The notes under the pieces: model-generated
Database searches by the model: none
What the model saw: the letters and a program-made list of their open reading frames with translations, nothing else
Told to the model about the DNA's origin: nothing
Position numbers and translations under genes: made by a program
Shown: positions 3,227-25,890 of the stretch, piece after piece
Numbering within the stretch: position 1 is the stretch's first letter
Layout: each line of letters starts with the position of its first letter
Origin: Zetaproteobacteria bacterium CG06_land_8_20_14_3_00_59_53
GTDB lineage: Bacteria; Pseudomonadota; Zetaproteobacteria; Mariprofundales; Mariprofundaceae
Assembly: GCA_002779605.1 (NCBI GenBank)
Contig: PEWE01000027.1
Location: 1-46,910 of the forward strand
Direction of reading: 5' to 3'
DNA: 46,910 nt

Positions 3227-4363
3227 ATGACATCCATATCGATCAAGGGGATAGCCCTGTGTACGGGACTGCTGTTCGCAGTGGCGGCATTTGCCCAGCC
3301 GTCGGTTGCAGATAACGACCGTGACAAAAACAAGAAAGAAGGCCATGAAACCAAGGTCATCAAGCTTGTCGGTCCCGCCGGTCCGCAGGGACCGATCGGC
3401 TTAACGGGTGCAACGGGCGCGACCGGATCAACCGGTCCGCAGGGTCCGGCTGGCCCAGCAGGCGCTGATGGTGCAACGGGACCGCAGGGGCCGATCGGCC
3501 AGACCGGTCCACAGGGTCCGGCAGGCGCTGATGGTGCAAACGGTTTGGATGGTGCGACAGGCCCACAGGGTCCGGCAGGCGTTGATGGTGCAACCGGCCC
3601 GATGGGTCCTCAGGGACAGCAAGGTCCAGTCGGTGCGACCGGCCCGATCGGCCCACAGGGTCCGGCGGGTGCTGACGGTGCTATCGGTCCGATGGGGCCA
3701 GTGGGTCCGGCAGGCGCAGATGGTGCAACCGGCGCGACCGGTGCAACCGGTGCAACCGGCCCACAGGGTCCGGCAGGTCCGCAAGGCATCCAGGGTCCTC
3801 TGGGATTGCCGGGTGCGGATGGTGCACAGGGTCCGGCAGGTCCCATGCCGGGTGTCGGTCAAAGCTGTCCGACAGGGCAGGCTGTTACCGGCTTCGATGG
3901 CAGTGGCAATCTGATTTGCGCCGCATTTATTTCTCCCATCAATCTGTCCGGCGTGGTTTCGACCTATGCCTCGGCCGGTCGCAATGTGCACATCTTCAAG
4001 ACCACACAGTGCGCCGATCTCAGTCTGCCCGAGAACCAGACCTTCTGTGAGTCGCGTGGTCTGAAGTGGTGGAAGCCGAAGGATGCCGCCGATGCACAGT
4101 TGCTGGTGACGAATGCCTATGCACTGGACAACTACCACACCTGGATTCAGGTGAACGGCGTGACCACTGCTACCGGAAATCCCGCGATCATTGACGGGTT
4201 TGCAGTAACGGTGGATTCCCCGACATGCGTTGCGGGTTCAACCGCAGGTTTTGCCGGTTTCCGCAAGTGGGGCTGCTCGCTGGGCGATCCGGAGGCCTAC
4301 GGCAACAAGAGCTGCGTCTGGGATACCAGTCATGCCTACGACTGGTTTGTCTGCGAGGAGTAA
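3227..4363 (+). CDS. Secreted collagen-like protein with cysteine-rich C-terminal domain
   Basis: A 378-residue protein with a signal peptide (about 1-30, hydrophobic core [16 protein letters not shown]), a short Lys/Asp-rich linker, then about 160 residues of Gly-X-Y repeats. The last 165 residues are globular with eight cysteines, suggesting disulfides in an exported protein. The start has a purine-rich GAGGGGA ribosome site. The domain layout (signal, collagen stalk, globular head) suggests a surface fibre, possibly for attachment or biofilm. The C-terminal domain is not one I recognise and is unlike that of the first collagen-like protein. Confidence 0.85.
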
Positions 4364-4402: not shown

Positions 4403-4437
4403 AAAACGGGCCGTAGCGCAAGCTGCGGCCCGTTTTA
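4403..4437. terminator. Bidirectional terminator with GCAA tetraloop
   Basis: The hairpin AAAACGGGCCG / CGGCCCGTTTT has an inner AGC-GCAA-GCT and A/T tracts on both sides. It lies between the plus-strand collagen-like gene and the minus-strand methyltransferase gene, so it can end both transcripts. Confidence 0.85.
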
Positions 4438-5148
4438 TTTGATCTGAAAGCTTGTGACGCGGTAAAAGCTGTTGAAGCAGTAGGCACGGGATTCGGCTGC
4501 AATGGATTTTCCGTGTATGTGTAGCGACTCATCAAACGAAACCTTGATATCGTGCCGCCAGAAGTCGGGTAGGAAGGGTTCGAGCCTGCCGAGGATCCAG
4601 CGGGTGAGGGGGAAGCGGTAGAGCAGGTGTTGTTCGGGCAGTGGCGCATATTCGCTGAGGATGATGCTGCCGCCGGGGCGAAGCACGCGGGCGATCTCTG
4701 CGATGCTGCGCTCTCTGGCATCGTGCGGCATTTCGTGGAACAGGAAGAAGACGATGATCTGATCGAAGCTGTTGTCGGCAAAGGACAGGCTTTCGGCGTT
4801 CAGGCGAACACAGTGCAGCGGGTGTCCGATGCTTGCGGTCCTGGTCTGCGCGAGCTGCATCTGGGCTGTGCATGCATCGACAATGAACATCCCCTGCGGA
4901 AGGCGTTGCAGTAATTTACCGGTGAGTTCTCCGTACACGCAGGTTAGCTGCAGCACGCGGTGTGTCGGCTCGGTGGTCACATGCGGCAGGGTCATGGCCT
5001 GCAGCTTGCGGTAGTGGCCGAACAGGATGGCATTGATGATCGGCTGGTGATCGAAGAACCAGATGCTCCGCTTCCACAGATAGGCCCACCAGTAATGCCG
5101 CGCCAGATACCACGGCACACCATCCTGAAAGTGCTGGTATAGCGCCAT
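4435..5148 (-). CDS. rquA: RquA-like rhodoquinone biosynthesis protein (class I methyltransferase fold)
   Basis: RquA converts ubiquinone to rhodoquinone using SAM as amino donor. The 237-residue product carries what I recall as RquA hallmarks: VPWYLxxxYWWAYL (11-24), FFD then INAILFGHYRKL (31-49), VLQLTCVYGELT (65-76) in place of the usual GxGxG SAM motif, SFDQIIVFFLFHEMP (127-141), RVLRPGG (154-160) and LEPFLPDFWRHDI (189-201). Length fits the family. The start at 5148 overlaps the upstream TPMT-like stop (TGATG), so the two are translationally coupled. The alternative is an uncharacterised UbiE-like quinone methyltransferase. Assignment is by motif memory, not by alignment. Confidence 0.75.
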   Translation of the reverse strand: MALYQHFQDGVPWYLARHYWWAYLWKRSIWFFDHQPIINAILFGHYRKLQAMTLPHVTTEPTHRVLQLTCVYGELTGKLLQRLPQGMFIVDACTAQMQLAQTRTASIGHPLHCVRLNAESLSFADNSFDQIIVFFLFHEMPHDARERSIAEIARVLRPGGSIILSEYAPLPEQHLLYRFPLTRWILGRLEPFLPDFWRHDIKVSFDESLHIHGKSIAAESRAYCFNSFYRVTSFQIK

Positions 5149-5723
5149 CAGATCCGGGTCAGTTGATACCCGAGTTCGAAGCGTCCGTTGCGGTGCGGTG
5201 TGAATACAGGCTCGATCACCGGCCATTGCCAGCGCGATTCGGGGAACAGGCGGCGCATGGCCAGAAGATCGCAGTGAAAGGGAGGTCCGCTCTCGGCTCC
5301 GGTTTGCATGAACAGGGCGAACAAGGTGCCGCCCGGCTTGATCCAGTCATGCAGCAATGCCTCATAGGCTTCACGTTGCCCCGGTTGGATGGCGCACAGA
5401 CAGGTCTGCTCGTAAACCGCATCGAAAGGGACGTCAGGTTTGAATGCGAACAGATCGGCGAGCAGCACCTCCGCATTCAGGCCCTTTCCGGTAAGCTCCT
5501 GTTGCAAGTGGCTGACGGCGGAAGGCGCGATATCGATGCCGGTGACATCAAAGCCGACTTCGGCCAGATGCACCACTTCGTGCCCGCGTCCGCACCCCGG
5601 AACGAGGATGCTGGCATGGCTATCCAGGTTTGCTGTTTTCAGCCAGACAGAAAGCGCCGGGCTGGAAGCACCCCGGTCCCAGCCGGTTTCTCCGTTCTGA
5701 TAGCGCGATTCCCAATCGTTCAT
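5148..5723 (-). CDS. TPMT-like SAM-dependent methyltransferase
   Basis: A 191-residue class I methyltransferase of the thiopurine S-methyltransferase family. The N-terminal WESRYQNGETGWDRG is the typical opening of this family. SAM motif I is VPGCGRGHE (about 41-49), then GIDIAPSAV. Bacterial members methylate metalloids (Se, Te) or small thiols, and the substrate here is unknown. It is cotranslated with the rquA-like gene, which is curious because no quinone role is known for this family. Confidence 0.8.
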   Translation of the reverse strand: MNDWESRYQNGETGWDRGASSPALSVWLKTANLDSHASILVPGCGRGHEVVHLAEVGFDVTGIDIAPSAVSHLQQELTGKGLNAEVLLADLFAFKPDVPFDAVYEQTCLCAIQPGQREAYEALLHDWIKPGGTLFALFMQTGAESGPPFHCDLLAMRRLFPESRWQWPVIEPVFTPHRNGRFELGYQLTRI

Positions 5724-5750: not shown

Positions 5751-6239
5751 CTACTGGCGGTAACTCGCATGACACTCGATGCAATAGTTCATGGTTCGAT
5801 GCAGAGCCCGCAGAGATTGCTCAGGGTCTTTGCTTTTCAGGGTCTCGCCAAGTTCATCGGCACTCTGGTGGAAGGCCAGTCCCATGGCTCTGAAGTCCTG
5901 ATTCTCGAACATATTGCACATCTGCTGCATTTCCGGTGTCAGGCCGAGTTTCTGGTGCGCAACAGTCGAGGCCTCGTCGAAGCGTTTGTCAGCGATCAGG
6001 CCTGCGATATCCTGCACGGCTTTTAAATGTGAACGCATATTGCTCAGTTGATGCTGTTTCTGCATCGGGCCGAGGCCGAGGGAGATCCTCGTATCATCGC
6101 TGCTGTTCGAAGCCGGATGCATTCCATCGGCATGCATCATGTGAGCTGCCGGCATGGCGGCGTGTGCAGATTCTCCGGCTTGTGCCGGCAGCGAACCAGC
6201 AGCAAGACCGATGCAGGCAAGCATGAGCCAGTGCTTCAC
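5751..6239 (-). CDS. Cytochrome c-prime/c556-like (class II) exported cytochrome
   Basis: A 162-residue protein with a signal peptide (1-21, ending AQA|GE), a His/Met-rich linker, a helical body and a single heme c site CIECH five residues from the C-terminus. A C-terminal heme site on a four-helix body is characteristic of class II cytochromes c. Such proteins bind NO or carry electrons in the periplasm. The linker (residues 26-45, several His and Met) might bind metal. The start overlaps the AhpD-like gene by ATGA, so they form one operon. Confidence 0.8.
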   Translation of the reverse strand: MKHWLMLACIGLAAGSLPAQAGESAHAAMPAAHMMHADGMHPASNSSDDTRISLGLGPMQKQHQLSNMRSHLKAVQDIAGLIADKRFDEASTVAHQKLGLTPEMQQMCNMFENQDFRAMGLAFHQSADELGETLKSKDPEQSLRALHRTMNYCIECHASYRQ

Positions 6240-6586
6240 TTATTTCCGCCTGAAAATTCCTCGAAGGCCTGCATGGCCTCGGCGGCATACATCAGGGACG
6301 GACCGCCGCCCATGTAGATGGACATACCCAGCACCTCGACGAGCTCTTCGCGGGTGATACCGAGCGCGATCAGCGACTTGATGTGGAAGCCGATACAACC
6401 CTTGCAGTGGGTGGCAACGCCGATGGCCAGAGCGATCATTTCCTTGTTCTTCTTTGTTAGAGCACCGTCTTCCAGTGCCGCGCCGGCCATGGCCGAAAAG
6501 CCTTTCATCACATCGGGGATATCCTTGCGGATGCCGCCGATGGTGGCGGAAAGTTCCTTTGTCAGTTTCTGATATGCATCACTCAT
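6236..6586 (-). CDS. AhpD/carboxymuconolactone decarboxylase-like protein
   Basis: A 116-residue all-helical member of the CMD/AhpD superfamily with the redox motif HCKGCIGFH (CxxC followed by His), as in AhpD-type peroxidase partners. The ending SIYMGGGPSLMYA is typical. A peroxide or disulfide reduction role is plausible but unproven. It lies between the bd-operon tail and the c556-like gene. Confidence 0.82.
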   Translation of the reverse strand: MSDAYQKLTKELSATIGGIRKDIPDVMKGFSAMAGAALEDGALTKKNKEMIALAIGVATHCKGCIGFHIKSLIALGITREELVEVLGMSIYMGGGPSLMYAAEAMQAFEEFSGGNK

Positions 6587-6630: not shown

Positions 6631-7101
6631 TCAGGGCCGGGAAACCAGCGGGGCCTTCTCGCCCTGCTTGATCAACCGCACCAATACTACCGCCTCAAGG
6701 GCAAGGCCTGCCATCGAAATCGCGCCCAGTCCTTCATGCTTCAGCCACTGGCAGAACATCACCCAGGCTACGATCAGAAACAGCACGGCAAGTCCGGTGA
6801 TACCCTGAGCCAGTTCGCGCAGGATGACGGGCAGGCGCGAGGCCAGCTTGAGCATCTTGCGGAACGGCCAGCTGATGACGGCCTCGAAACGCTCGAAGGC
6901 AGTGATGCGTTTGGTCAGTAACCAGCCGATGGCGATGACCATCAGTGCAAAGATGCCGTAATCCACGATCAGCCAGGTGACATCAACACCGTCCATCCAT
7001 GGCGGCGGACCCTGCCGGGTGGTGTAGGCCTCTCCCTTGTCGAGCGGATCGGCAGTGGCGGTGATGGGCAGTAAAGCGGCCAGACTGATTATTTTTCGCA
7101 T
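6631..7101 (-). CDS. Small membrane protein of the bd operon, unknown function
   Basis: A 156-residue protein with a signal-like N-terminus (MRKIISLAALLPITATA) and three likely membrane segments (about 43-62, 99-117 and 128-144). The ATG at 7101 lies in the 3' end of the preceding gene (13-base overlap), which argues for coupled translation. The far longer upstream extension in this frame is a shadow of the neighbouring gene and is not used. I do not recognise the family; its place after cyd and trx suggests a respiratory envelope role. Confidence 0.65.
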   Translation of the reverse strand: MRKIISLAALLPITATADPLDKGEAYTTRQGPPPWMDGVDVTWLIVDYGIFALMVIAIGWLLTKRITAFERFEAVISWPFRKMLKLASRLPVILRELAQGITGLAVLFLIVAWVMFCQWLKHEGLGAISMAGLALEAVVLVRLIKQGEKAPLVSRP

Positions 7102-7406
7102 GATGATCTCTCCGTTTTTTGTTGTTCTTCGAATCGCCGCATCGCATCCAGTCCGATGGTCATGGCGATCAGGATGCCGCCCGCGGCCGTGGCATGCCAG
7201 CCCAGATTGTTCACCCGATGGCAGAGCATCAGCCAGATGATCGCCAGCGGCGCAAAGCGCAGCAGCTGTCCCCAGAAGCCCTTGCCGTGCAACAGACGAT
7301 AAAGCATCTGCGTCAGCAGCGGCATCCACATGCTCCGCCCCTGGTATCCGCGCCAGCAGGCCACGGCGATGGCAACCAGAAAGGCGATATCGAGTGCGAT
7401 CAGCAT
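7089..7406 (-). CDS. Small membrane protein of the bd operon, unknown function
   Basis: A 105-residue protein with three hydrophobic segments (about 2-18, 46-64 and 71-89) and a charged C-terminus ending CEK. It starts 4 bases after the preceding gene's stop and overlaps the next gene. The family is not recognised. Codon use matches its neighbours. Confidence 0.65.
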   Translation of the reverse strand: MLIALDIAFLVAIAVACWRGYQGRSMWMPLLTQMLYRLLHGKGFWGQLLRFAPLAIIWLMLCHRVNNLGWHATAAGGILIAMTIGLDAMRRFEEQQKTERSSCEK

Positions 7407-7410
7407 GCCC

Positions 7411-7659
7411 TCATCCGCCCTTACGCTGCGGAATGTTGCAGGCGGCCGATGCCGGCACGAAATAGCGCAGCAGCAACCATAGAATCGGCCACGAATGCCA
7501 GAAGATATCGAACATATCGACCGGCCGCAGGGTCTCGCCATTGAGCAACATGCGCGCCTTTTCCAGCAGATGGGGCTCGGGATAGAAGGGCGCAAGCCCC
7601 AGCAACACCGCCGCCATGATCAGCATCGGTAGTGATGGACATCTCAACCAGTTCAACAT
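7411..7659 (-). CDS. Small membrane protein (FYPEPHLLEKARML type)
   Basis: An 82-residue protein with two hydrophobic segments around the amphipathic PEPHLLEKARMLLNGETLRPVDMFD. I recall short proteins with this motif in proteobacteria, often labelled only as small transporter-like or hypothetical. A strong AGGAGAGG ribosome site lies 4 bases upstream. It is the first of three small membrane genes after the thioredoxin gene. Confidence 0.7.
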   Translation of the reverse strand: MLNWLRCPSLPMLIMAAVLLGLAPFYPEPHLLEKARMLLNGETLRPVDMFDIFWHSWPILWLLLRYFVPASAACNIPQRKGG

Positions 7660-8215: not shown

Positions 8216-9352
8216 TTAGTACGAGGTGTGTTCGGTGTTGCGAATATGGCTGACCGTGACCCTGCCGCGCAACACGTGGAAGACCCAGGATGTGTAAGCC
8301 AGAATCAGCGGAACAAAAATCACAGCGGCAACCAGCATCAGGAACAGGGTCTGCTCGCTGGATGTCGCATCCCACATAGTCAGGCTGTGCGCGGGATGGG
8401 TCGAGGATGGAAGCACGAAGGGGAACATCGCGACACCTGCGGTGGCGATGATGCCTGCCACGCCGAGACTTGAAGCGATGAAGCGGATGCCGTCACGCTG
8501 CAGCACGAATACCGCCAGCGAGCCGAGAATGCCGATCGCAGGGACGACCCATAGGACCGGTGCCTGATGGAAATTCCCCATCCATGCGCCGCTTTGCATG
8601 CTCACATCCTTGAGCAGCGGATTGGACGGTCCGCTATGCGAGAGAGCGGAGGCAAGCTGGAAACCATCCAGCCCGAAAGCCACCCAGATGCCGGCCACCA
8701 CGAACAGCAGCGCGGTGAGCAGAGCCGATGCTCTGGCCACCTTATGCGATCTTGCGTACACATCGTGATCGGTTTTCACGCTCAGGAAGGATGCTCCCTG
8801 CATGACCAGCATGGACACCGACACAAGCCCTGCGAGCAGCGCGAACGGGTTGAGCAAGTCGGGCAGCCCGCCGGTATAGAAGCTGCGCATGGTGTCGTCG
8901 AAGTGGAACGGAACGCCCTGCAACAGATTGCCGAAGGTCACGCCGAAGATCAGCGCCGGAACCAGGCCGGACACGAACAGGCTCCAGTCCCAGAGCGAAC
9001 GCCACGCAGGGCTGTGCAGCTTGCTGCGATAATCGATGGCGACTGGACGCAGGAACAGCGCGAACAGCACGATCAGCAGCGCGGCATACAGACCCGAGAA
9101 GGCCACGGCGTACACAGTGGGCCATGCGGCGAGCACAGCGCCGGCACCGAGGATCAACCACACCTGATTGCCGTCCCAGGTCGGGCCGATGCTGTTGAGC
9201 AGAACCCTGCGTTCTTCATCCGTGCGTCCGACGAAGGGGTGCAGCGTTGCCACGCCCAGATCGAAACCGTCCATCACGGCAAAGCCGATCAACAACACGC
9301 CGACCAGTGCCCACCAGATAAACCGCAATGCTTCGTAATCAAGGAATTCCAT
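8216..9352 (-). CDS. cydB: Cytochrome bd ubiquinol oxidase subunit II
   Basis: A 378-residue polytopic protein matching CydB across its length: FIWWALVGVLLIGFAVMDGFDLG at the N-terminus, then PTWDGNQVWLI and AFSGLYAALLIVL. CydB is the heme-free partner that supports CydA in the inner membrane. The start follows the cydA stop directly. Ends with the expected ANTs-like charged tail after TM8 to TM9. Confidence 0.97.
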   Translation of the reverse strand: MEFLDYEALRFIWWALVGVLLIGFAVMDGFDLGVATLHPFVGRTDEERRVLLNSIGPTWDGNQVWLILGAGAVLAAWPTVYAVAFSGLYAALLIVLFALFLRPVAIDYRSKLHSPAWRSLWDWSLFVSGLVPALIFGVTFGNLLQGVPFHFDDTMRSFYTGGLPDLLNPFALLAGLVSVSMLVMQGASFLSVKTDHDVYARSHKVARASALLTALLFVVAGIWVAFGLDGFQLASALSHSGPSNPLLKDVSMQSGAWMGNFHQAPVLWVVPAIGILGSLAVFVLQRDGIRFIASSLGVAGIIATAGVAMFPFVLPSSTHPAHSLTMWDATSSEQTLFLMLVAAVIFVPLILAYTSWVFHVLRGRVTVSHIRNTEHTSY

Positions 9353-10903
9353 TTAAGCCTCCGTGGTTTCGTAGTGATAGCGGCCGGTATGCAGGCTGCT
9401 GGGCCCGAGCCGCGCGTATTTGATCATCAGGAACATCTCCACTGCGAAAAGTGAGATGTACATCAGCGCGAAGGCGGCCAGGCTGTTACGCACCTGATCG
9501 AAGCTTAGCGAGGAGATGCTCAGGTGAGTCGGAAGAATACCGTAGATGGTCCAGGGCTGACGTCCGAATTCGGCAACGAACCAGCCGAACTCGGCAGCCA
9601 CCCATGGCAGGGGAAGGGCGAGAAGCGCCATCCACAGCAGGCTGCGACGTTGTTCGATGCCGGCTTTGCGGGACGCGATGAAGGACCACAGCATTAGCAC
9701 AAACAGCGCCATGCCGATACCCACCATGATGCGGAAGGTCCAGAACATCGGAGCCACTGCCGGCACGGTGTCGCGCGCTGCCTGATGAATCTGCTCATCA
9801 CTGGCACCGGCAACATCCTCGGTGTATTTCTTCAGCAATAGCCCGTAGCCGAGATTGTCCTGATGCGCTTCGAACTGCGCTCTGGTCGTCTCCGATTGAT
9901 CGCCTTCGCGTATGGCGCGCAGCGCACTCCAGGCGATCATACCGTCGCGGATGCGCGCATCGTTGGCCTCGATCAGGTTGGCGATGCCGGGAACCTGCTT
10001 ATCCAGCGAACGGGTGGCGATCATGCCGAGTGCGCCCGGGATCTTGATGGCCATATGAGTGCTGGCCGATGATTCATCCGGCAAACCGATCAGGGTGAAC
10101 GCAGCCGGTGCCGCTTCGGTTTCCCATTCGGCCTCGATGGCAGCCATCTTTTCCGGCTGGTACTCGGCTACATGGAAACCGGATTCATCGCCCAGCATGA
10201 TAGCCGAGACGGATACCACCAGGCCGAAACCGGCAGCCACGGCAAACGAACGACGCGCGAATTCGATATCCCGGCCGCGCAGCAGGTAGAAGGCGCTGAT
10301 GGCCAGCACGAACACGGCGCCGGTCAGGTAGCCGGCGGACAGGGTGTGCAGGAATTTCACCTGTGCCACAGGGTTGAACAGCAGTTCAGTGAAGCTTGCC
10401 AGCTCGGTGCGCATGGTATCCGGATTGAATTCCATGCCGACCGGATGCTGCATCCAGCCGTTAGCGATCAGTATCCACAGGGCGGAGAGATTGGATCCGA
10501 AGGCCACCAGGGCTGTGACCATCAGATGCTTGCCCTTGCTCAACCGGTCCCAGCCGAAGAAGAACAGACCGACAAAGGTGGATTCCAGGAAAAAGGCCAT
10601 CATGCCCTCGATGGCCAGCGGCACGCCGAAGATGTCACCGACATAATGCGAGTAGTAGGCCCAGTTGGTGCCGAACTGGAATTCCATGGTCAGGCCGGTG
10701 ACCACCCCCATGGCGAAATTGATGGCGAACAACTTGCCCCAGAAACGGGTCATGTCCTTATAGATCTCCTTGCCGGTGATGACATAAAGACTTTCCATCG
10801 TGACCAGCAGCAGGGATAGGCCCAGGGTCAACGGTACGAACAGGAAATGCGTCAGTGCCGTAAAAGCGAATTGTAATCGTGATACATCAACCAGTGCTTC
10901 CAT
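9353..10903 (-). CDS. cydA: Cytochrome bd ubiquinol oxidase subunit I
   Basis: A 516-residue CydA carrying hemes b558, b595 and d. It is of the long-Q-loop (E. coli-like) type, with GYGLLLKKYTEDVA and a 120-residue loop before FRIMVGIGM. The b595 ligand His19 sits in LTHFLFVPLTLGLS, and GRQPW and the tail LGPSSLHTGRYHYE are present. It reduces O2 to water with quinol at high affinity and without proton pumping. The enzyme resists sulfide, which fits the sulfur locus upstream. A good AAGGAGA ribosome site is present. Confidence 0.98.
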   Translation of the reverse strand: MEALVDVSRLQFAFTALTHFLFVPLTLGLSLLLVTMESLYVITGKEIYKDMTRFWGKLFAINFAMGVVTGLTMEFQFGTNWAYYSHYVGDIFGVPLAIEGMMAFFLESTFVGLFFFGWDRLSKGKHLMVTALVAFGSNLSALWILIANGWMQHPVGMEFNPDTMRTELASFTELLFNPVAQVKFLHTLSAGYLTGAVFVLAISAFYLLRGRDIEFARRSFAVAAGFGLVVSVSAIMLGDESGFHVAEYQPEKMAAIEAEWETEAAPAAFTLIGLPDESSASTHMAIKIPGALGMIATRSLDKQVPGIANLIEANDARIRDGMIAWSALRAIREGDQSETTRAQFEAHQDNLGYGLLLKKYTEDVAGASDEQIHQAARDTVPAVAPMFWTFRIMVGIGMALFVLMLWSFIASRKAGIEQRRSLLWMALLALPLPWVAAEFGWFVAEFGRQPWTIYGILPTHLSISSLSFDQVRNSLAAFALMYISLFAVEMFLMIKYARLGPSSLHTGRYHYETTEA

Positions 10904-24483: not shown

Positions 24484-25890
24484 ATGCTGAAATACTTGTT
24501 TTCAAAAGAAGATGATATCCCGCAGGGCACTGCGGCGATATTCTTTGGTGTGTCTTCCATTGCCTGGTTCATTATCGGAACCGGCCTTGGTTCATTCAAT
24601 GCTGCCAAACTCGCATTTCCTGACTTGTTCCATGGTCTGTACTCGCTGCAGTTCGGTCATGTGCGTCAGGTTCACGTTCATGCCGTGATTTTCGGCTGGA
24701 TTGCCATGGCTTTCGCTGCCTCCATGATGTACATCACCCCGGCTCTGGGTAACACCAAGTTGTGGTCCGAGAAGCTCGGCGTGTGGAACTGCATGCTGTA
24801 TAATGTGGGTCTGTGTCTTGCTCTGGCGCTGCTGTGGGCCGGTGTGACCTCGGGCCGTGAGTATTCCGACCACATCTGGCCGATTGATCTGTACATCGCC
24901 TTCGTGATGGTGGTGCCATGGTGCTTGAACGTTTGGATGACCGTGATCAACCGCCGTACTCAGGGTATCTACACCACCAACTGGTTCTTCGCTGGCTGCA
25001 TGTTCATGACAGTGATCGTGTTCCTGGTTGGTAACATGCCTGAATGGCTGCACCTGACCGGTCTGAACGAGGCATACATGACCTGGTGGTTCGCTCACAA
25101 TATTCTGGGTCTGCTGATTACCCCTGTGGCTGCTGCTATCACCTACTACATCGTTCCGAAGATCACCGGTAACCCGCTGTATTCGCATCGTGTGGGTCAT
25201 CTGCACTTCTGGTCGATCGTGGTGTTCTACTCCACACCGGCAGCCCATCATCTGATGAGTTCTCCGCTGCCGGAATGGCTGAAGTCTTTCGCATCCGTGG
25301 AAGGTGTGCTGATCCTAGTGCCGGCTGTTGCATATGTTTGCAACATCCTGCTGACCATGCAGGGTCGCTGGGCCATGTTCGTGGAAAACATCGAGATCAA
25401 GTTCACCATTACCGGTGTGCTGCTCGCCATTCCGCTGAACATGCAGGGCGGCTTCCAGCAGACGCGTGCTATCAACTGGTACATCCATGGTACCGGCTGG
25501 ATTGTGGCTCATGCTCATCTGGCGCTGCTCGGCTTCTCGACCTTTGCTGAGGCTGCTTCCGTGTACTACGGCATGCAGGTTCTGCTGCGTCGCAAGCTGT
25601 GGTCTGCATCGCTGGCTAACTTCCACTTCTGGATGCTGCTGATCGGCTTCTCCCTGTACTGGACCTCGATGACCATTTCCGGTCTGATCCAGGGCGCCGC
25701 CAAGATCTACGAGGTTCCATACGTGGACGTGGTGATCGCGGAGCATCCTTACATGATCGTACGCTGGCTGGGTGGTACCATGGTGTTCTTCGGTAACATC
25801 ATCTGGCTGTACAACATGATCATGACCGCACGTGCCGGTGACCCGGTGCCTGTCGGTCGTCAGCCGGCTGAAATCGCCTACACGCGCTGA
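24484..25890 (+). CDS. ccoN: cbb3-type cytochrome c oxidase catalytic subunit I (divergent)
   Basis: A 468-residue heme-copper oxidase subunit with 12 helices. Ligands can be placed: HVHAVIFGW (64-72, low-spin heme b), H205 (FAHNILG) and H255-H256 (AAHH) for CuB, and VAHAHLALLG (341-350) for the hemes. Tyr249 lies six residues before the HH pair, as in the cross-linked active-site Tyr of cbb3 enzymes. It therefore looks catalytically complete. The sequence is clearly divergent from classical CcoN. High-affinity O2 reduction at the inner membrane is expected. Confidence 0.93.
   Translation: MLKYLFSKEDDIPQGTAAIFFGVSSIAWFIIGTGLGSFNAAKLAFPDLFHGLYSLQFGHVRQVHVHAVIFGWIAMAFAASMMYITPALGNTKLWSEKLGVWNCMLYNVGLCLALALLWAGVTSGREYSDHIWPIDLYIAFVMVVPWCLNVWMTVINRRTQGIYTTNWFFAGCMFMTVIVFLVGNMPEWLHLTGLNEAYMTWWFAHNILGLLITPVAAAITYYIVPKITGNPLYSHRVGHLHFWSIVVFYSTPAAHHLMSSPLPEWLKSFASVEGVLILVPAVAYVCNILLTMQGRWAMFVENIEIKFTITGVLLAIPLNMQGGFQQTRAINWYIHGTGWIVAHAHLALLGFSTFAEAASVYYGMQVLLRRKLWSASLANFHFWMLLIGFSLYWTSMTISGLIQGAAKIYEVPYVDVVIAEHPYMIVRWLGGTMVFFGNIIWLYNMIMTARAGDPVPVGRQPAEIAYTR

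Follow-up and report, generated by a model that had tools for sequence, protein, structure and literature searches.

RquA is the enzyme which, with SAM and Mn2+, converts ubiquinone into low-potential rhodoquinone, and rhodoquinone is regarded as rare. The locus described here raises the question whether a member of the iron-oxidising Zetaproteobacteria carries such an enzyme. In the window, which is the whole stretch of 46,910 nucleotides that was analysed, an rquA-like gene had been pointed out in a preliminary description, and the four motifs quoted there were all found again in one open reading frame, located on the minus strand, which that description had left unstated. The frame starts with an ATG at 5148, and the resulting protein of 237 amino acids contains YWWAYL at residues 19–24, VLQLTCVYGELT at 65–76, FFLFHEMP at 134–141, and LEPFLPDFWRHD at 189–200. 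SAM motif I is degenerate, with VYG in place of GxGxG within VLQLTCVYGELT. The gene and the genes preceding it are the following:

4435–5148 (stop codon included), minus strand: RquA-like (sister-clade) SAM-dependent enzyme, 237 amino acids, assigned by profile match, tree, conserved residues, and fold model
5148–5723, minus strand: TPMT-like class I methyltransferase, directly upstream of the rquA-like gene (PF05724, E 2.4e-31)
5751–6239, minus strand: cytochrome c'-like protein, a weak match (PF01322, 25.5 bits, just under the cut-off of 26.5)
6236–6586, minus strand: carboxymuconolactone decarboxylase/AhpD-like protein, conserved across the rquA-like cluster of zetaproteobacteria (c31)
6631–7329 (extent of the reading frame; translation probably begins further downstream), minus strand: membrane protein, likewise conserved in that cluster (c44)
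7411–7659, minus strand: small membrane protein, also conserved in that cluster (c22)
8216–9352, minus strand: CydB, cytochrome bd oxidase subunit II (context of a low-oxygen quinol oxidase)
9353–10903, minus strand: CydA, cytochrome bd oxidase subunit I (context)

From 18,950 NCBIfam models the best match of the window protein was RquA (NF038261) with 161.5 bits and an E value of 2.4e-47, leading the next family by more than 110 bits. The MenG/MenH/UbiE subfamily model yielded 47.9 bits against a cut-off of 158, and the UbiE equivalog model 44 bits against a cut-off of 378; with these scores and without the GxGxG of motif I the protein falls outside UbiE/COQ5. The score also fails the curated cut-off of the RquA equivalog model, which is 175 bits. 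Compared with an orthologue from the same genus (L005, 79% identity), the gene has a dN of 0.15, a dS of 0.86, and a dN/dS of 0.17, and is under purifying selection. An AlphaFold model (pLDDT 89, pTM 0.88) predicted a class I SAM fold, with SAM-bound yeast Coq5 as the best match in the PDB (TM 0.62); a search of the PDB by sequence found no solved RquA structure. A chance reading frame was ruled out by the E value of the RquA match, the dN/dS, and the confident model.

With the RquA model, 399 genomes from the phylum were searched, together with 229 from the class of G257 (probably Gammaproteobacteria) and 240 from that of G376. Two main score populations emerged, canonical RquA mostly at 200–318 bits and another at 155–186 bits, which straddles the cut-off and for which the label Z-type is coined here. 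Among the relatives in the class of the window 15 score 177–186 bits and the other full-length members 155–173. Score alone is no clean separator: three divergent proteins (L103–L105) reached 187–201 bits and were not placed in the tree. In two trees canonical RquA and Z-type were split by one long branch with support values of 100 and 100/100, and the window protein fell on the Z-type side, outside the canonical clade. Rooting with UbiE was unreliable owing to very long branches, so that only the unrooted split is relied on, and the canonical rows are genome proteins matching NF038261, among which the RquA of Rhodospirillum rubrum itself was not identified. On these trees Z-type is a distinct clade, sister to canonical RquA with support of 100/100. 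The window protein stays under the cut-off because it belongs to this clade, through the middle of which the current RquA cut-off passes. Of the identification as rquA, then, the part naming RquA as the best family stands, and so does the placement on the RquA side rather than with UbiE, which the residues bear out; with a score below the cut-off and a position in the sister clade, the gene is not safely called rquA outright.

Residues were compared among 124 Z-type, 43 core canonical RquA, and five UbiE sequences. Thirty-four positions are conserved to at least 90% in Z-type and canonical RquA alike, and most of them differ from the five UbiE proteins; they include Y14, W21, A22, Y23, Q67, C70, Y72, and Q96, and further H138, E139, P141, Y167, E190, and W197. 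The HExP motif is invariant in Z-type, with histidine and glutamate at 138 and 139 replacing arginine and asparagine of UbiE in 124 of 124 sequences. Aspartate 91 of the window protein corresponds to the SAM-site residue D118 of R. rubrum RquA and is aspartate in all 124 Z-type proteins. The equivalent of the second SAM-site aspartate, D143, is asparagine 117, because the 25-residue spacing from D118 in the canonical proteins fits; it is asparagine in 115 of the 124 Z-type sequences (93%), whereas 42 of the 43 canonical proteins have aspartate in this column. One of the five UbiE proteins has asparagine there, and therefore asparagine need not preclude SAM binding. The RquA double mutant D118A/D143A is inactive, and no single mutants of either residue were found in the available portion of the same paper (PMC9814641). 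Ten columns (34, 38, 43, 45, 69, 117, 166, 193, 228, and 230) are fixed differently in Z-type and canonical RquA, the changes being mostly conservative.

Taken as a whole, the window protein resembles RquA, of which groups A and B have been described (PMC5953543), in the predicted class I SAM fold, the lost GxGxG with CVYG, the D118 equivalent, YWWAY, HExP, and LEPF, and is 29–34% identical to the aligned canonical members; homology and signature are thereby established. It differs in its sister-clade position under the family cut-off, in asparagine for D143 and glutamate in the D166 column, in the absence of an N-terminal extension and the presence of extra C-terminal residues, and in FYRV where canonical RquA has GLYQK. 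With the UbiE/COQ5 C-methyltransferases, within which RquA is thought to have originated (PMC5953543), it has the fold and the SAM-site aspartate in common, but it departs from them at about 20 positions besides motif I and HExP, and UbiE is encoded separately in the host genome. These RquA-specific residues, the profile scores, and the separate UbiE ruled out a misannotated UbiE, in agreement with the earlier view of the gene as RquA-like and not UbiE.

The genome carrying the window encodes UbiA (341 bits, over the cut-off) and this separate UbiE (293.6 bits). MenD had no match in it and none over the cut-off in the class, weaker matches being taken as other TPP enzymes, which ruled out menaquinone by the Men route. 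From these genes ubiquinone is expected to be available as a substrate and menaquinone by the Men route is not. Most canonical RquA occur together with an oxygen-independent ubiquinone route (73 of 84 genomes; PMC11707229). UbiV is absent from the host genome, and therefore this route is not required for retention of the gene; it is also absent from 74 of the 78 genomes of the class, and with UbiV in only four a tie to this route was ruled out for zetaproteobacteria. UbiV was found in 12 of 20 other Z-type hosts examined, nearly all outside the class and including both Ferrigenium. The host has one SdhA, next to which SdhC, SdhD, SdhB, and bc1 genes were read by eye, and no second FrdA indicating a dedicated fumarate reductase was found in it. 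Genomes of the class have as a rule one SdhA and one lower match (about 350 bits, taken as NadB), by which a dedicated fumarate reductase was ruled out for the class. Besides CydAB, the window encodes a COX1-family oxidase subunit (24484–25887), cbb3-like and adjoining small cytochrome c genes.

The end of the TPMT-like frame overlaps the start of the rquA-like gene by 1 bp, and therefore the two are probably co-translated; a TPMT-like gene also adjoins rquA in other zetaproteobacteria (L125, L147, and L151). A thioredoxin gene is found among the neighbours together with CydBA. The cluster is shared in part by five other zetaproteobacteria, in which it comes with rhodaneses and TauE, as judged by eye, and with a gene resembling type III sulfide:quinone reductase (90 bits, under the cut-off). 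In L147, L149, L151, L170, and L175, genes for rhodanese, TauE, DUF302-like, sulfide:quinone reductase-like, AhpD-like, and small membrane proteins were seen beside the rquA-like gene. On the plus strand of the window two frames with collagen-like Gly-X-X repeats occur (138–1361 and 3227–4363), the second adjoining the rquA-like gene in convergent orientation.

Elsewhere the gene keeps other company. In five related gammaproteobacterial loci the Z-type gene precedes genes for 2-oxoacid:acceptor oxidoreductase subunits and for a GltD/PorD-like flavoprotein. Four of these loci also have malate dehydrogenase, and citrate synthase lies downstream in those where the stretch extends far enough. The Z-type gene heads the oxidoreductase operon in the gammaproteobacterial L213, L214, and L216 (metagenome-assembled genomes) and in an alphaproteobacterium (L217), where an NfnA/NfnB-like pair and the oxidoreductase genes follow. 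One Gallionella has genes of this type one gene away from rquA on the opposite strand. These oxidoreductase neighbourhoods, about three independent cases, fit a low-potential, low-oxygen setting and are no proof of it. In most Gallionellaceae loci the neighbours resemble, by eye, housekeeping genes and an SDR; a short-chain dehydrogenase-like gene lies directly upstream of rquA in many of them (L109–L154; cluster c2, 20 loci).

The best reading of the window gene, with a probability of roughly 0.65, is that it encodes an RquA-type enzyme of a third clade which would make rhodoquinone. By homology with RquA we infer that the enzyme would bind SAM, most likely via D91, and move the amino group of SAM to ubiquinone, displacing a methoxy group. 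The invariant H138 and E139, which stand in place of the UbiE residues, would be the likeliest metal or substrate residues. Rhodoquinone would then provide a second, lower-potential pool for electron transfer at low oxygen in a microaerophile in whose genome ubiquinone genes were found and MenD was not. In reverse electron flow, a use suggested in the preliminary description, the energy gap between Fe(II) and NAD+ would stay the same as a whole, and a lower-potential quinone would only transfer uphill work from complex I to bc1 or ACIII; fumarate reduction would need the single succinate dehydrogenase to run backwards, because no second FrdA was found. In favour of rhodoquinone count the lead of more than 110 bits, the 34 shared positions, the D118 equivalent in 124 of 124, the structural match to SAM-bound Coq5, the dN/dS of 0.17, UbiA and UbiE without MenD over the cut-off, UbiV in 12 of 20 hosts, and the 2-oxoacid:acceptor oxidoreductase, Nfn/GltD-like, malate dehydrogenase, and citrate synthase neighbours seen in some relatives among the gamma-, alpha-, and betaproteobacteria. 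Against it count the score below the cut-off, the long branch with 100/100 support, asparagine for D143 in 93% of the clade, and the lack of UbiV and of a dedicated fumarate reductase in the host genome, as well as a desulfobacterial rquA, its clade not assigned, which yielded no rhodoquinone in E. coli (PMC13386864).

A SAM enzyme acting on ubiquinone or another lipid quinone might also release a different product, such as a methylated quinone, a demethyl-quinone, or an amino-quinone other than rhodoquinone. This is a minority possibility, to which the differences fixed across the clade at the ten columns, the longer C-terminal region with FYRV replacing GLYQK, and the different gene company in zetaproteobacteria lend some weight, whereas the mostly conservative nature of these differences speaks against it, as does the fact that motif I and HExP keep the RquA form where UbiE has another. 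It is improbable that the protein is a non-catalytic paralogue with a SAM fold, such as one with an accessory or regulatory part in quinone metabolism: degenerate motif I, missing UbiV, and the lack of a fixed operon partner common to all lineages would suit it, but D91, H138, E139, and Y72 show little or no variation across a large divergence, and canonical RquA is equally degenerate at motif I and yet active (PMC9814641). Loss of GxGxG, the far higher RquA score, the host's own UbiE, and the exchange of arginine and asparagine for histidine and glutamate throughout the clade make an ordinary UbiE/COQ5-group methyltransferase misread as RquA highly improbable, in spite of the common fold, weak UbiE-family scores (48 bits), and Coq5 at the top of the PDB matches.

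The zetaproteobacterial origin given in the preliminary description agrees with the named members of the host class, Mariprofundus and Ghiorsea. The Z-type gene occurs in 31 of the 78 genomes of this class (19 of 39 among good genomes); in the 229 sampled genomes of the class of G257, 18 have Z-type and nine canonical RquA, assigned by their side of the split in the tree. Among the best 80 of 463 relatives, the named zetaproteobacterial carriers are Mariprofundus micogutta ET2, Mariprofundus spp. EBB-1 and KV, and Ghiorsea; the Gallionellaceae are represented by many Sideroxydans and Gallionella metagenome-assembled genomes and by Candidatus Ferrigenium straubiae and altingense, and the others are Rhodospirillaceae and gammaproteobacterial metagenome-assembled genomes. 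As judged from sequence, the clade recurs in two unrelated iron-oxidising lineages, many gamma-, and some alphaproteobacteria. A topology test rejected the zetaproteobacterial sequences as one clade (p-AU 9.6e-6), and the window gene pairs with L108 in a group with Gallionellaceae sequences (support 98/82); the gene has thus been exchanged horizontally between the two iron-oxidising lineages and others.

A 2018 survey listed seven RquA orders, neither Mariprofundales nor Gallionellales among them, and rquA in two of 2493 gammaproteobacterial genomes (PMC5953543). In line with the preliminary description, a literature search of partly accessible sources found no report of rhodoquinone in Zetaproteobacteria; it found no paper on rhodoquinone in Gallionella either. 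A 2026 survey infers rhodoquinone in 24 orders (PMC13386864); Z-type may be a previously uncounted sister branch of RquA, or the supplement of that survey may already count it. The wider proposition, that a third RquA clade makes rhodoquinone or a close aminoquinone, is horizontally exchanged among neutrophilic Fe(II) oxidisers (Zetaproteobacteria and Gallionellaceae) and many environmental Gammaproteobacteria, and renders low-potential benzoquinones far commoner than the reported rarity of rquA suggests, is evenly balanced. Current schemes of electron transfer in microaerophilic iron oxidisers show one quinone pool (PMC4643136), to which a low-potential quinone would have to be added if Z-type makes rhodoquinone; if its product differs, a new SAM-dependent quinone chemistry would exist beside RquA. 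Cultured carriers of the Z-type gene exist. One genome (G056), the assembly of which has 5% contamination, contains two Z-type copies (G056:C8 and G056:C4), and in another (G041, L014/L151) the rquA-like gene has an in-frame TAG, either a pseudogene or a sequencing error.
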